This document shows, piece after piece, positions 7,348 to 16,331 of a DNA stretch of 34,706 nucleotides. The stretch covers positions 1 to 34,706 of the forward strand of contig CACJPB010000011.1 in the NCBI GenBank assembly GCA_902595175.1, in the 5' to 3' direction. Position numbers and translations under genes: made by a program. The notes under the pieces were generated by a model, which did not search any database, had not been told where the DNA came from, and saw only the letters and a program-made list of their open reading frames with translations. This DNA is from an uncultured Prochlorococcus sp. Its GTDB lineage: Bacteria > Cyanobacteriota > Cyanobacteriia > PCC-6307 > Cyanobiaceae. The number at the start of each line of letters is the position of its first letter. The first letter of the stretch is position 1.

Positions 7348-8061
7348 TTAATTTATCGACAACTGCCAACGCCTCTTTAAATAATTACAGTATTCACAAT
7401 TTAATGAGGGTTTGGGGAAATTTTCCGAACGTAATAAATTTACCGTATCAATTATCTTATTTTCTACCCATGAAGTAGAACAATCTAATTTAATTAGATG
7501 TACGTCAAAATTTAATTGATTATTAAAAAACTCTTGATTTTTCTTGCCATTAAAATATAAAAGATAAGCTTCTTTAGCCACTTGAAAACCATTTTTTTTA
7601 AACAACCACTGATACATTTCTAACTGTCTTTTATAAGCTTTTGCATATTCATATTTATTAAAAGTCTCAGACCAATCAAAATTATTTCTAGATGTTGCTT
7701 TTACATCAGCAATAATAAGATCACCATTTTTTTTCTGCCAAATATCATCTACAGCTCCACCAAAGTCATAGTTGTGTTCGATTGACTTATATCTTATCCC
7801 TTGAAAATTACTTCTCCAACGTTCTAAATCTTTGTGTTTGAAAGGCACAGCATCAATTCCATATTCAATAAATAAAGGATGCGGCTCCTGAATTTTTCTA
7901 TAATAATCAAATTCATTTTTACATAAATTATCTACAGCTATATTTAAGGTAAATGGTAATGATGGCGGTTTTATTTGATATTTTTTGTCTAGTACACAAC
8001 ATCTTGGACAACTAATATATTTCTCAACTGTAGATCGACTTAATTTAATAATATCGGACAT
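7348..8061 (-). CDS. Cas4/RecB-like PD-(D/E)XK nuclease
   Basis: A 237-residue protein of the PD-(D/E)XK nuclease superfamily. The catalytic set is visible in order: acidic residues D105/D106 (GGAVDDIW), the core D119-V-K121 (IIADVKATS) and the downstream Q146-x3-Y150 motif typical of RecB/Cas4/AddB-type nucleases. Cysteines C18, C21 and C22 at the N-terminus and C222 and C225 at the C-terminus are placed as in the iron-sulfur-bound Cas4 and AddB nucleases, so a 4Fe-4S cluster is likely. No cas1, cas2 or repeat array is nearby, so this is a stand-alone nuclease probably acting in DNA repair or processing. Its start lies about 70 bases from the distal guaA-like junction at 8130. Confidence 0.8.
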   Translation of the reverse strand: MSDIIKLSRSTVEKYISCPRCCVLDKKYQIKPPSLPFTLNIAVDNLCKNEFDYYRKIQEPHPLFIEYGIDAVPFKHKDLERWRSNFQGIRYKSIEHNYDFGGAVDDIWQKKNGDLIIADVKATSRNNFDWSETFNKYEYAKAYKRQLEMYQWLFKKNGFQVAKEAYLLYFNGKKNQEFFNNQLNFDVHLIKLDCSTSWVENKIIDTVNLLRSENFPKPSLNCEYCNYLKRRWQLSIN

Positions 8062-8129: not shown

Positions 8130-8153
8130 TTACTCCCACTCTATAGTACCGAG
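8130..8153 (-). repeat. Distal att-like copy of the guaA 3' end
   Basis: On the minus strand this reads GTIEWE then stop (TAA), just like the last codons of guaA. Ten bases, ACTCCCACTC on the plus strand, are identical to the guaA copy (10433-10442), and the neighbouring differences are mostly at third codon positions. Further upstream the similarity to guaA stops. The frame can be traced back to a nearby ATG as a 12-codon ORF (MTALFLGTIEWE), which is not a plausible gene. Best read as a recombination core. Confidence 0.6.
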
Positions 8154-8215
8154 AAATAAGGCAGTCATAAACGTAGTGATACCAACATGTTTGAACCCAT
8201 AATAACACACATTTT

Positions 8216-8239
8216 CCTGAGGGAAACCTGAGGGAAACC
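8216..8239. repeat. Tandem CCTGAGGGAAA repeats, left end of island
   Basis: Two perfect head-to-tail copies of the 11-mer CCTGAGGGAAA (8216-8226, 8227-8237) followed by CC. The same 22-base tandem recurs at the right end of the island in the same orientation, with GAGTCT a short distance downstream in both places. These resemble the arm-type direct repeats of tyrosine-recombinase attachment sites. Confidence 0.75.
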
Positions 8240-8284
8240 AATTTTTAGATCGAGTCTGTTTAATAAAAACTAAAAATTAATTAC

Positions 8285-8467
8285 TCAGTCACAGTAAATT
8301 AAACAATTCTGGTTAGTCGGATGTTCTCTACATTCCTTATCCCAAAAATTTTGGAATTCTTGAGGGCACTGCTCTAATTCTTTTGGAGTCTCGTTCAAGT
8401 TTAAACCTGCATAATTAAATGCGGTTAGATATCTTGGAAGAACATTGAATTGATTGAATAGTTTCAT
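8285..8467 (-). CDS. Small four-cysteine protein with strong ribosome binding site
   Basis: A 60-residue protein with cysteines at 34, 46, 55 and 59, the last three in a compact C-terminal CREHP...CLIYC pattern. No signal peptide or membrane segment is evident. The start is well supported by AGGAGGT placed six bases before the ATG, and a second AGGAGG lies about 25 bases further upstream. Such a strong Shine-Dalgarno is unusual beside the neighbouring genes, many of which have none visible. It is the gene nearest the left end of the guaA island, and its function is unknown. The cysteine layout could bind a metal or form disulfides. Confidence 0.65.
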   Translation of the reverse strand: MKLFNQFNVLPRYLTAFNYAGLNLNETPKELEQCPQEFQNFWDKECREHPTNQNCLIYCD

Positions 8468-8520
8468 AAGACCTCCTAGATCTATACCTATATTGTCCTC
8501 CTTTTTTCTTGAAATTCATA

Positions 8521-8534
8521 GGGTATTAATACCC
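8521..8534. promoter_or_regulatory. 14-base palindrome upstream of the small Cys protein
   Basis: The perfect palindrome GGGTATTAATACCC lies 54 bases upstream of the start at 8467. An imperfect echo (GTATTAGTGC) follows at about 8537. It sits in the gap shared by the leftward small gene and the rightward RNA candidate, so it may be an operator for either. No family can be named. Confidence 0.4.
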
Positions 8535-8594
8535 GAGTATTAGTGCTTTATGGTTTGTGCGACTATCTTTTTCTATTCAGCAGTAGTAGAAATA

Positions 8595-8683
8595 ATTCAG
8601 GAGTCAAAAGCACTTCATCGACTTTGTGGACAGCGAGGTGCATAAGACTCGAAGAGGGCAAACAAATGCCCTCTTATTTTTTT
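8595..8683 (+). ncRNA. Candidate structured small RNA with intrinsic terminator
   Basis: No ORF lies on the plus strand here, yet there is a two-hairpin architecture. GAGTC (8601-8605) pairs with GACTC (8646-8650), then a 4x4 internal loop (AAAA/ATAA), then GCACTTC (8610-8616) pairs with GAGGTGC (8635-8641) with one G-U, closing an 18-base loop. A GC-rich terminator follows at once (8652-8683). No plus-strand gene lies within 4 kb upstream, so this is not a gene's 3' UTR. The 5' end is unknown. The 3' end overlaps the HNH gene stop on the other strand. It does not resemble Yfr1, Yfr2-family, 6S or SRP RNA as I know them. Confidence 0.6.
8652..8683 (+). terminator. Intrinsic terminator, plus strand
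   Basis: AAGAGGGCA (8652-8660), loop AACAAA, TGCCCTCTT (8667-8675): a perfect 9-bp stem followed by ATTTTTTT. This is the clearest intrinsic terminator in the window. The T run is only on the plus strand, so it serves the RNA candidate and not the converging HNH gene, whose stop codon (8682-8684) it touches. Confidence 0.8.
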
Positions 8684-9359
8684 AAATAAATTTTGCTCCT
8701 TTTTTCAGATTATGTCTCGCACATAAAAGTTGAATATTAGATGCTACTTTTGATGATCCTCCTTTTGAAAAAGGAAGAATATGATCAAAATGTAAATTAT
8801 CGCTTGAACCGCAAATCCTACATTTACCCCTATCACGCTCATAAACCTCTTTTTGAACTTCACCAGGAATTTGTCTGTTGTGAAGCATATCTAAATATTC
8901 TTGATCATCTTGATTTAGATCTATTTTTGGTTTCAACAAAAACTTGAAAACTTTTCTTTTTTGATCATTTTTCTCATAAGCATCGATCAAATCATAAAAA
9001 CCCATATCAACCCAAATACCTTTTCTCAATTTTCTATACACTTGAATCTGTGAAGGTTCTTTTACTCCGTGTTTATAATCGAGTGCTGCCTGAAAAAATT
9101 TACCATTTTCAGTTGGTATTCCTGAGGGTGTTAATAAAGATTGATCAACCAATTTTTTTTGGGGATTTAAATTTACAGGAACATCATGTCCCTCATATTC
9201 AATAACACCATCTTCCAAAATATGGTCATTATATAGAGCATTTTTTTGAGTTGACATCAAAACTACAGAATATGTTTTTTGTATTGCAAAGTTCATTCCC
9301 TTTTGTATCTGTTTACCGTTCTCTTTTATTACTAATTGGGTATAAGAAATAACTTTCAT
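8682..9359 (-). CDS. HNH endonuclease with possible SRA-like N-terminal region
   Basis: A 225-residue protein. The C-terminal 55 residues are an HNH nuclease domain: zinc-type C180-x-x-C183, catalytic D192-H193 (FDHILPFSKGG), N208, and C213-x-x-H216. The N-terminal region (about 45-145) has GVIEYEG, an FFQAALDYK helix, and a region ending GIWVDMGFYDLIDAY...VFKFLLKPK. That layout resembles the SRA/YDG modified-base-reading domains found fused to HNH in type IV (modification-dependent) restriction enzymes. The resemblance is by eye and moderate. It belongs to the guaA island, where defence genes are common cargo. Intact and full length as far as I can judge. Confidence 0.75.
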   Translation of the reverse strand: MKVISYTQLVIKENGKQIQKGMNFAIQKTYSVVLMSTQKNALYNDHILEDGVIEYEGHDVPVNLNPQKKLVDQSLLTPSGIPTENGKFFQAALDYKHGVKEPSQIQVYRKLRKGIWVDMGFYDLIDAYEKNDQKRKVFKFLLKPKIDLNQDDQEYLDMLHNRQIPGEVQKEVYERDRGKCRICGSSDNLHFDHILPFSKGGSSKVASNIQLLCARHNLKKGAKFI

Positions 9360-9398
9360 AATTTTTCTTTAACTGATTCAATCAATCCTAATTTCCTC

Positions 9399-9503
9399 TC
9401 ATTCTTTGATTAAATTAAACTTGACTTCATAACGATAGAAATCAATATTCGGAGCAACCTTAAGAGCAAACTTTATCCTTAATTTATTAATAATATTAAC
9501 CAT
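9399..9503 (-). CDS. Doubtful 34-residue ORF
   Basis: ATG at 9503 gives 34 codons to a TGA at 9399, in the gap between the DUF1330 gene and the HNH gene on the same strand. The product is basic and partly hydrophobic (contains KFALKVAPNIDFYRYEVKF). No ribosome binding site is visible and I recognise no family. It could be a remnant of a longer gene or chance. Confidence 0.25.
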   Translation of the reverse strand: MVNIINKLRIKFALKVAPNIDFYRYEVKFNLIKE

Positions 9504-9536
9504 GAAAGAATTTTTAGTTTAAACATTTTTCCTTTT

Positions 9537-9824
9537 TCAAACTCCCTCAAAGATGGTAAGAGTCAGATCAGAATATGGAGTTCTTAAAGGAATCATCTTT
9601 TGATATTCCTCTGATTCATATGCAGAAACGGCATCTTCTTTTGACGGAAATTCAATAATTACTGTTAGATGTCCAAGAGTACTTTCCTTCTCAATAGTTG
9701 CCAAATCTCTAGCAAAAAATTTTCCATTAACAGAAGGCAACCAACCTTGAAGTGCTTTTAAATAAGGTTGCATTCCTTCACCGTCTTTAATAGATCCTGT
9801 TGATAACCAATAACCTTTTGCCAT
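9537..9824 (-). CDS. DUF1330 family protein (dimeric alpha-beta barrel)
   Basis: A 95-residue protein matching the DUF1330 fold: an N-terminal beta strand (MAKGYWLST), a helix with YLKAL, a central Gly-Lys-Phe-Phe-Ala-Arg segment, a strand with HLTVIIEFPS and a short helix with AYESEEYQKM before the last strand. Such proteins form ferredoxin-like dimers. Activity is unknown for most members. It lies inside the guaA island on the same strand as its neighbours, 78 bases after the cysteine-rich gene. No signal peptide. Confidence 0.8.
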   Translation of the reverse strand: MAKGYWLSTGSIKDGEGMQPYLKALQGWLPSVNGKFFARDLATIEKESTLGHLTVIIEFPSKEDAVSAYESEEYQKMIPLRTPYSDLTLTIFEGV

Positions 9825-9902
9825 TTTGAAAAAACTCTCTTTTATTATTATAGAAATTTGATAAATGGAATCTGGAAAAGATTAAAAAAATAATTAACTA
9901 AA

Positions 9903-10148
9903 TTAAGCAACTTCGGGACACCAACCTTCACGAAGTTCTCTTCTTTTTACCCAGTATTTGCATCCTTTTATTAGATGATCTCCTTGAGGTATTAGTTTCT
10001 GGTGGACCGGACAAGTTAAAAGAGTCACGCATTGAACAGTACACGCATAACGGAAGTGATCACAGCACATACAAATCTTTGTTCTTTTCTTTCTTAATTG
10101 ATTTTCTTCCCAATCATTGAGATAACCCCACTCTTCTTCGGCAATCAT
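9903..10148 (-). CDS. Cysteine-rich small protein, unknown function
   Basis: An 81-residue protein with eight cysteines (26, 28, 29, 36, 40, 46, 63, 77) and histidines at 31, 49 and 58. The core runs KICMCCDHFRYAC, then CPVHQK, then GCKYW. This density of Cys and His suggests a zinc- or iron-sulfur-binding fold. The N-terminus is acidic and the middle basic. It resembles small hypothetical proteins of picocyanobacteria, but I cannot assign a role. It is the island gene nearest guaA, and its upstream region holds inverted repeats and GGGAAAC direct repeats. Confidence 0.65.
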   Translation of the reverse strand: MIAEEEWGYLNDWEENQLRKKRTKICMCCDHFRYACTVQCVTLLTCPVHQKLIPQGDHLIKGCKYWVKRRELREGWCPEVA

Positions 10149-10257
10149 AATAGTAATACAGATGTACTACTAAGAATAATACAAGTGAAGGCACATTGGG
10201 AAGCAAATAAAATTACAACCTAAAAAGTAAAAAAATATTGTATTTTGAATACAAAGT

Positions 10258-10295
10258 GTAGAGAAATTTAAATCTCTACGATTTCTCTATAGAGA
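10258..10295. repeat. Cluster of inverted repeats near the island's right end
   Basis: GTAGAGA (10258-10264) faces TCTCTAC (10273-10279) across an 8-base spacer. Then the palindrome TCTCTATAGAGA (10284-10295) gives two more half-sites of the same motif, so four related half-sites fall within 38 bases. They lie between the start of the cysteine-rich gene (10148) and the GGGAAAC direct repeats, and could bind a regulator or recombination accessory factor. Confidence 0.6.
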
Positions 10296-10309
10296 CAGGA
10301 TTTTCACTC

Positions 10310-10392
10310 CACGGGAAACCTGAGGGAAACCTCGCTGTTAAGATCCATTACAAATAGGAAACATAAATTCTGAGGGAAACCTGAGGGAAACC
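10310..10392. repeat. GGGAAACC direct repeats, right end of island
   Basis: Two clusters in the same orientation. 10310-10331 has a degenerate copy (CACGGGAAA) plus one perfect CCTGAGGGAAA, and 10370-10392 repeats the tandem seen at 8216-8239 (first base aside), again followed by a T run and GAGTCT. The second cluster ends 40 bases from the guaA end. Confidence 0.75.
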
Positions 10393-10430
10393 TACTTTTT
10401 GAGTCTATAACTGGGTTTATAACCTATTCT

Positions 10431-10454
10431 TCACTCCCACTCAATGGTTCCAGG
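10431..10454 (-). repeat. Proximal att-like site: 3' end of guaA
   Basis: The last codons of guaA (GTIEWE, TGA stop). Seventeen of the first 21 plus-strand bases match 8130-8150, including the 10-base core ACTCCCACTC at 10433-10442. It would be the gene-restoring junction of an element inserted here. Confidence 0.6.
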
Positions 10455-12017
10455 AGGTTTGCTTGTAATATCATAAACAACTCTATTAACTGAACTTACT
10501 TCGTTTACGATTCTATTTGCAATCCTCTCCAAAATCTGAAAAGGAATTTTTGACCAATCTGCCGTCATACCATCTTCACTAGATACACAACGTAAAACTA
10601 TTGGCCATGCATACGTCCTTTTATCTCCCATAACTCCCACAGTTTTAACAGGTAGCAATACTGCAAATGCTTGCCAAATATCATTGTAAAGACCTGCTTT
10701 TTTAATTTCGTCTCTTACTATCCAGTCTGCATCTCTTAAACAGTCAAGTTTTTCATTATTCACCTCTCCCAAAATTCTTATAGCTAATCCTGGGCCTGGG
10801 AATGGATGCCTTTTTATTATTTCATCAGGCAAACCTAAAGCAGCGCCCACTTTTCGGACTTCATCCTTAAAAAGTTTTCTTAAAGGCTCAACTAATTTAA
10901 ATTGTAAATCTTTTGGCAGTCCACCCACGTTATGATGACTCTTTATTTTTACAGCTATTCTTTCACCAGTCTTGGGATCAATATTAGTACCAGCACTTTC
11001 AATAACATCAGGATAAAGAGTACCTTGAGCTAAATACTGGAAAGGTCCCAATCTATTGCTTTCTTCTTCAAATACCCTAATAAATTCTTCGCCTATAATT
11101 TTTCTTTTTTGTTCTGGATCAGTAATCCCTTTTAATTTGGCAATAAACCTTTCCCTTGCGTTTATATATTCCACTTTTATGTGAAATTTCTTATCAAAAA
11201 AATTCATTAAAAATTCTGGTTCACCTTTTCTCATGAATCCTTGGTCTATAAACATGCATGTAAGCTGATTTCCTATTGCTTTATTGAGTAGAAAAGCAAG
11301 AGTTGAAGAATCAACTCCTCCAGACAAAGCAAGCAAAACTTTTTTATTACCAACTTTCTCTCTTATCCTAGGAATAGTTTCCTCTATGTAGGTTTCAGTT
11401 GTCCAATCAGCAGCACAGCAAGAAATTTTATAAACAAAATTTTTAATTACTGTCATCCCAAATTCTGAATGAATAACTTCAGGATGAAATTGTACACCAT
11501 ATAATTTCTTTACATCATTTGAAATTGCTGCATGAAGTGTGTTCTCAGTATGAGCAATTTTATTAAATCCATCAGGCAAACAATTAATTGAATCGCCATG
11601 ACTCATCCACATAATAGATTTATCTTCTACATCAGAGAGAAGGTCAGATTTTAGATCTATATTAATTGGCGCTCTACCATATTCAGCTTTTTTAGAGGCT
11701 GAAATAACAGATCCTCCAAGTTCTTTGACCATTAATTGCATTCCATAGCATATGCCAAGAATAGGAATTCCTAAATTAAAAATTTTTTCATCACATTTAG
11801 GCGCATTTTGTTCATATACAGAATTTGGGCCTCCACTCAAAATGATCCCCTTAGGATTAATTTCATTAATATCCTCAATTGAAATAGAGTTACTGACTAC
11901 AAGAGAAAAAACATTGGTTTCTCTAATTCTTCTTGCAATCAATTCAGAATATTGAGATCCGAAATCTAAAATCAATATTGAAGGATCTCGTTCTTTTTTT
12001 AAAGGTATTTGACTCAT
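10431..12017 (-). CDS. guaA: GMP synthase (glutamine-hydrolysing)
   Basis: A 528-residue enzyme converting XMP, ATP and glutamine to GMP, the last step of guanine nucleotide synthesis. The N-terminal class I amidotransferase domain has nucleophile C90 (GICYGMQ) and the H178/E180 pair (FHPEV). The ATP-pyrophosphatase P-loop is SGGVDSS (232-238), and the C-terminal dimerisation domain ends in the conserved GTIEWE. The length is normal and nothing is damaged, even though its 3' end appears to be the integration site of the neighbouring island. cbiD lies 55 bases upstream on the same strand, so the two may be co-transcribed. Confidence 0.96.
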
Positions 12018-15932: not shown

Positions 15933-16331
15933 ATGCATATTAATGATGCGGTGTTTTTAGAGGATTTATGTCCTAAGTTTAGATTAAGACAATGGCGAAA
16001 ATCTATTCATAAGTTTACAGGAAAGAGTTGTATATATTGCGGAAAAACTTCTGAATCTATTGACCATGTAATACCAAGAAGCCAAGGAGGCTTAAGTACA
16101 ACAGAAAACTGTGTCCCAGCATGCCTTTCCTGTAATGGTGATAAATCAGATGAAAATGCTTTGTATTGGTATAGAAGACAAAAATTTTATGATCCTCGAA
16201 GAGCAATGGCTATAAGAGCTTGGTTAGATGGAGATCTAAGACTAGCTATAAGATTACTGCAATGGGCTAATCCTAATTTTCAGGTTAATAAAAATAACGA
16301 AAAAGATGGATCAGAATATAGAGCAGCTTGA
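15933..16331 (+). CDS. HNH endonuclease family protein
   Basis: A 132-residue HNH protein. The zinc-type cysteines C33-x-x-C36 and C64-x-x-C67 flank D44-H45 (IDHVIPRSQGG) and N59, followed by N68, the normal core of HNH enzymes. The C-terminal 50 residues are helical and Trp/Arg-rich (RAMAIRAWLDGDLRLAIRLL) and may bind DNA. It is not related in its N-terminal part to the island HNH protein at 8682-9359. Similar short HNH proteins are widespread in cyanobacterial core genomes. The substrate is unknown. Confidence 0.82.
   Translation: MHINDAVFLEDLCPKFRLRQWRKSIHKFTGKSCIYCGKTSESIDHVIPRSQGGLSTTENCVPACLSCNGDKSDENALYWYRRQKFYDPRRAMAIRAWLDGDLRLAIRLLQWANPNFQVNKNNEKDGSEYRAA

Follow-up and report, generated by a model that had tools for sequence, protein, structure and literature searches.

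The window analysed here is a 34,706-nucleotide stretch from a contig of an uncultured Prochlorococcus sp. whose genome assembly (G000) comprises 1,112,619 bases in 38 contigs and is 65.6% complete. In this window, the minus-strand gene guaA ends at 10431 with the codons GTIEWE-stop, and the same ending recurs at 8130-8150, where 84% identity extends over 19 bases and includes an identical 10-base run, ACTCCCACTC. Tandem 11-bp words, GGTTTCCCTCA (plus strand TGAGGGAAACC), which had been overlooked in an earlier note on this DNA, lie just inside both ends of the interval between the two copies (Table 1). None of the four open reading frames in the interval matched an integrase, as that note had stated, and the PD-(D/E)XK gene that it had taken as the far limit proved to be a fixed host neighbour beyond the element. 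A tRNA scan of the window found none. We hold with good confidence that positions 8130-10451 make up a mobile module integrated at the 3' end of guaA, with putative attL and attR sites, no recombinase of its own, and dependence on one supplied in trans.

Table 1. Features of the guaA module and its flanks (window coordinates)
Feature	Position	Strand	Remark
guaA (GMP synthase), host gene	10431..12017	-	carries the attachment site at its 3' end
Left junction core, attL-like, GGAACCATTGAGTGGGAGTGA	10431..10451	-	TGA stop; TGA in filled loci only
Left arm pair 1, GGTTTCCCTCA twice	10371..10392	-	59 bp past core start
Left arm pair 2, GGTTTCCCTCA (10321-10331) and variant copy GGTTTCCCGTG (10310-10320)	10310..10331	-	120 bp past core start
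Cargo, 81-aa Cys-rich protein	9903..10148	-	no Pfam/PHROG match at E 0.01
Cargo, DUF1330 protein (PF07045)	9537..9824	-	
Cargo, HNH endonuclease (PF01844), 225 aa	8682..9359	-	
60-aa protein	8285..8467	-	
Right arm pair, GGTTTCCCTCA twice	8218..8239	-	89 bp ahead of right core start
Right junction core, attR-like, GGTACTATAGAGTGGGAGTAA	8130..8150	-	followed by empty-site host sequence
Stretch near-identical in AG-895-M21	8134..10445	.	change-over inside both cores
PD-(D/E)XK/Cas4-like gene	7348..8061	-	fixed host neighbour, right anchor, not cargo

The same site was surveyed in 129 guaA loci, the window's included, from the 166 of 200 genus genomes that had a guaA match. The right anchor (the PD-(D/E)XK gene, or an estimate from the next two genes) was reached in 109 loci and was missing in 20. 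Both states whose existence among relatives the earlier note had made a check of its proposal, the empty site and the alternative filling, were found: 30 of the 109 anchored loci were empty, with 48 to 79 bp between guaA and its neighbour, and 79 were filled, with 115 bp to 15.5 kb. The sample was partly chosen: eight of the filled loci were included because they had the window's arm word and one (G009) because of its integrase; without these nine, 70 of 100 loci were filled. Among the fillings, G070 had a type I restriction-modification set, G049 a methylase protein of the Eco57I type, and G067 a set of OTCase, asparagine synthase, and M20 peptidase genes. On a FastTree phylogeny of the right flank (107 loci), occupancy changed 26 times, at least 20 of these changes being forced by starred branches. 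Shuffled occupancy labels gave a mean of 26.5 changes, and 247 of 500 shuffles were as low as the observed value; occupancy thus carries no trace of descent. The smallest starred clade around the window had three rows, one of them empty.

The second GTIEWE-stop copy is real and not a chance resemblance. A 21-mer core pattern (up to three mismatches, alternatives allowed; written after inspection of right ends) matched 106 times in the filled guaA loci (304,447 bp), for which Markov-1 resamples gave an expectation of 1.4 matches. When the second core and the DNA past it were aligned with G084, a relative whose site is empty, 100 of 111 columns agreed (manual count). Junction polarity, measured as the 8-mers of a 60-bp flank shared with an empty site, was the same in all 45 filled loci that had a core close to the neighbour: the flank of the far core was more empty-site-like than that of guaA, the median sharing being 0.52 on the far-core side, 0.02 on the guaA side, and 0.55 among the empty loci themselves. 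Stop codons followed a similar pattern. Among the 30 empty loci, guaA ended in TAA in 29, in TAG in one, and in TGA in none; TGA ended guaA in 33 of the 79 filled loci, and the far core carried TAA in 41 of 45. Given this polarity and this stop-codon pattern, the crossover most likely falls within GAGTGGGAG, and the element would provide the stop codon of guaA. A longer guaA homology ahead of the second core, which VYD-like letters had brought up, was rejected, as that stretch is element sequence common to the right ends of other modules.

The GGTTTCCCTCA 11-mer had five exact copies in the 1.11-Mb assembly, all of them in the module, whereas its reversed control had one forward and one reverse copy. 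The double word (up to two mismatches) was present in 17 of the 200 genus genomes, and all 17 had a copy behind guaA or on the contig with the PD-(D/E)XK end of the locus. In a search of 84,980 species genomes, exact copies of the double word were confined to Prochlorococcus, with 19 stretches on 16 contigs, of which one (AG-676-M04) had no anchor in the stretch examined; 20 stretches were added for placing arm words and anchors, and 13 of them entered the shared-stretch comparison described below. Two further words, searched genus-wide, occurred in 18 and 21 of the 200 genomes, with a copy at the guaA locus in 15 of the 18 and in all 21, respectively; the remaining three genomes (G173, G179, and G102) had the word on short contigs with neither anchor.

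Many filled loci are tandem arrays of core-bounded modules, in which tandem 11-bp words follow one core by about 59 bp (often also by about 120 bp) and precede the next by about 89 or 81 bp. The words vary between modules (GGTTTCCCTCA, GGTTTCCCGTG, GGTTTCACGTG, GGTTTGTCACG, GGTTTTACGTG, GGTTTCACACG, and GGTTACACGTG) and are mostly matched within a module. In 22 of 27 modules longer than 300 bp, the left and right words did not differ at any of the seven variable positions when the better-matching copy was taken. The mean difference was 0.41, against 2.29 for shuffled pairings, and none of 10,000 shuffles was as good; the test omits 18 of the 45 modules with GGTT-type arms, which are shorter than 300 bp. 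Cargo-free modules consisting of a core, one arm pair, and a core measured 139 to 148 bp, and 18 of them had GGTT-type arms (for example, L096, L092, L216, and L232). They are apparently remnants left by deletion between left and right arm repeats, to which the spacing of 59 plus 81 or 59 plus 89 bp fits. It is conceivable, if a little short of probable in our estimation, that the guaA end holds an address-coded cassette array, in which integrase-less cassettes have one crossover core in common and use their own paired 11-bp words (GGTTTCCCTCA, GGTTTCACGTG, GGTTTGTCACG, GGTTACACGTG, and others) to choose an integrase in trans. Were this so, cassettes would be stacked, re-ordered, and dropped independently of each other.

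The window's module was found again in AG-895-M21 (locus L174), with 2288 of 2291 positions identical over 8150-10440 and the three differences clustered at 8193-8196. The flanks were far less alike: guaA matched at 136 of 161 positions (84%), and the right-hand genes matched at 58 to 84% per 100-base bin (a last bin of 22 bases was identical). The last difference on the left was at 10446 and the first on the right at 8133, both inside cores, and past the right core AG-895-M21 was unlike the window, having several hundred extra bases ahead of the PD-(D/E)XK gene. This comparison indicates that the window's module moved recently between lineages, as a unit cut at its cores. G103 and G024 shared a second module, alike at 2305 of 2367 positions and with its junctions at cores; in G103 it followed guaA immediately, and in G024 it followed another module. 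The guaA ends of these two genomes were only 82.9% alike. On the strength of the two pairs, modules without an integrase are read as moving as units and as able to sit behind different array cores.

Integrase-bearing elements between such cores, which the earlier note had proposed to look for, are present behind guaA in relatives. Integrase detection covered types matched by PF00589 (in 46 genomes, picked mainly for fillings) or by a guaA-integrase profile; other types would escape. The PF00589 search gave an integrase at guaA in three genomes, and a profile of those three matched in 10 of 200 genomes, with an intact frame behind guaA in four (G026, G020, G095, and G009). An integrase remnant, a 45-aa frame, lay directly behind guaA in G093 (L201), and the same five were found among 2,530 frames from filled or unanchored loci. 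Pfam holds a domain for the arm region of P4-type integrases; the three integrases scanned (P0001-P0003) matched PF00589 and had no P4-type arm domain in Pfam. SG[LM]RxxE, HPSTKTG, PYSLRH, and a terminal Y were all present in P0001-P0003, and in G009 only HPSTKTG and the terminal Y were matched. Together with the empty sites and alternative fillings, these elements support the proposal that a tyrosine-recombinase element entered at guaA.

Three of the four integrase elements have arms near the geometry of the window: G095 with GGTTTCCCGTG words at +59, +120, and -89, which are also the positions found in the window; G009 with repeated GTCTCACCCA at about +60, +132, and -90; and G026 with ATCACACACA at about +59 and +121 and CGTCACACAT at about -100. 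The closest integrase pairs were P0002 and G009 (63%) and P0001 and P0003 (54%). A link between integrase type and arm word is only suggested, because P0001 and P0003 have ATCACACA in common but the words of P0002 and G009 differ. A resolvase is also encoded in the integrase elements of G026 and G095. AG-895-M21 had two PF00589 matches, neither in the module and one, a 445-aa protein considered as a candidate for the cognate enzyme, below the cut-off. Two side observations concern recombinases elsewhere. A 389-aa frame with a weak PF00589 match, apparently a core recombinase-like gene, occurred in 26 of the 46 genomes (manual count). A 505-aa relative of the guaA integrases lay between two genes, presumably trmD-like and ispF-like, at 1569-6651 of L209 (G087:C5:44000-52000); the first gene ends in FRIGNGYD..., and the motif recurs at the start of the second, which suggests that L209 may be a second integration site in a protein gene.

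A viral origin of the module found no support. The viral contigs contained zero exact arm pairs, a pattern scan of them for relatives of the guaA integrases gave 102 stretches of which none was confirmed, and phage records showed no similarity to the module (megablast) or P0002.

The helper of the module is most likely a guaA-specific tyrosine recombinase, whose source would be an autonomous guaA element, present in the same cell or riding in tandem. It would bind the 11-bp arm words at fixed distances on either side of the core, the core of the module would be aligned with a guaA-type core, and strands would be exchanged in GAGTGGGAG. With the exchange placed there, integration would restore guaA, which would retain its last codons and receive its stop codon from the element. 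Excision would yield a circle joining 10430 to 8150. The arm function of the words, the action of the integrase in trans, and the circular intermediate are what we infer from this arrangement.

The earlier note had offered two options, loss of the element's integrase and dependence on one encoded elsewhere. Dependence is favoured over loss, because a copy that likewise lacks an integrase and matches at 2288 of 2291 positions is present in a divergent host and so moved without the gene. That the module is instead a decayed autonomous element, its integrase deleted after arrival and the rest now fixed, is unlikely: internal deletion at the site is suggested by the cargo-free remnants, and G093 keeps only its 45-aa integrase frame, but the window retains both cores and both sets of arms in full. 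Homologous recombination, by which the module would have been swapped in inside a longer flank with no site-specific step at the transfer, seems more improbable still. Prochlorococcus genomes do recombine, and the core is common to the strains seen; against such a swap, the change-over falls within the core at either end, between flanks only 84% and 58 to 84% alike, and the second module occupies a different array position in another host, again with junctions at cores. The reading in which the second GTIEWE copy arose by chance or is left over from an old duplication of the guaA end, and the genes between are ordinary, could appeal to the 19 to 21 bases involved; it is hardly credible in view of the excess of cores, the empty sites, the junction polarity, and the arms, which refute it.

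Several observations weigh against the integrated module with a trans-acting recombinase, or against the matched arms. None of the integrases found had GGTTTCCCTCA arms, those of G095 (GGTTTCCCGTG) coming closest, and the window's genome, only 65.6% complete, had no PF00589 match. The integrase element of G020 has its words at about +84 and +156 and a different word on the right, and the right word of G026, at about -100, is also displaced. Only 45 of the 79 filled loci had a core that could be recognised no more than 110 bp from the PD-(D/E)XK start, leaving 34 without one. GGTT-type arms stood at both ends in 45 of 119 two-core modules, and 74 failed. Among the 27 long modules, three differed at one position and two (L099 and L162) were discordant, and some are copies of one module and so not independent, which the shuffle ignores. 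Finally, among shared stretches of at least 600 bp, a list in which some genomes appear twice, once by G handle and once by name, only 20 of 806 exceeded guaA identity by at least 5 points, so that most show no recent transfer by this measure.

Among the proteins of the module, the HNH endonuclease gave only weak PADLOC matches (best E 8e-6) when a defence role was sought. A second HNH endonuclease gene lies outside the module, at 15933-16331. The 60-aa protein was considered as an element-specific excisionase, a role left unsupported by homologues in 128 of 200 Prochlorococcus genomes, many of them away from guaA. From the end of this protein to the right core there were 138 to 139 bp in eight of nine two-core modules with the best locus match inside and 128 bp in the ninth.

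The survey points to a hotspot of integration at a protein gene in a photosynthetic genus that is very abundant, with 79 of 109 anchored loci filled. The guaA modules are mostly without an integrase and carry restriction-modification, methylase-like, and amino-acid enzyme genes, among others. The pair identical at 2288 of 2291 positions represents a sharply bounded gene transfer between Prochlorococcus lineages, and matched arm words would predict, base by base, which recombinase serves which cassette.

Islands at guaA are described from proteobacteria, for example, GIsul2 with its CR2-sul2 unit (PMC9376610) and ICERspD18B (PMC7775301), and frequently have a P4-type integrase with AlpA nearby (Song et al. 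2012, as cited in this literature). The window's module resembles them in its gene end and in the same 8-bp core, GAGTGGGA, within its direct repeat. It differs in having no integrase, and the integrases scanned from its relatives (P0001-P0003) gave no match to a P4-type arm domain in Pfam; the Prochlorococcus host and the modules' differing arm words also set it apart. The CR2-sul2 unit lies between att sites and is moved by the GIsul2 integrase (PMC9376610); we read the unit as lacking an integrase itself. In the accessible text of PMC3146451, Dehalococcoides islands stand in tandem behind one gene, ssrA, bounded by 20-bp copies of its 3' end, and 15 of 31 are without an integration module and were suggested to be cis-mobilizable elements (CIMEs). 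They differ in using a serine recombinase and the ssrA gene, and matched arm words are not described in that text. Like a CIME, the window's module keeps predicted attL and attR sites and has no recombinase or transfer genes; tandem accretion at the same site is likewise seen in relatives, the window itself having a single module.

Within Prochlorococcus, tycheposons are cargo elements of 4 to 200 kb with a tyrosine recombinase and tRNA sites, according to the available portion of PMC10872708. The guaA module is similarly a cargo-bearing element of this genus with a likely tie to a tyrosine recombinase; unlike tycheposons it sits at guaA, measures 2.3 kb, and has no recombinase, and the window has no tRNA. 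The same portion of PMC10872708 describes an additive flexible island of Methylophilaceae, variable in content, with recurring 20-bp gene-end copies at a tRNA-Lys site; the recurring gene ends are alike, and arm words or an assignment of integrases are not described there. At the level of titles and abstract openings in mostly open literature, searches that extended to cyanobacteria listed no report of guaA islands in Prochlorococcus. The kind of element is thus already known, and the Prochlorococcus host, the arrays, and the module-specific arms appear to be new.

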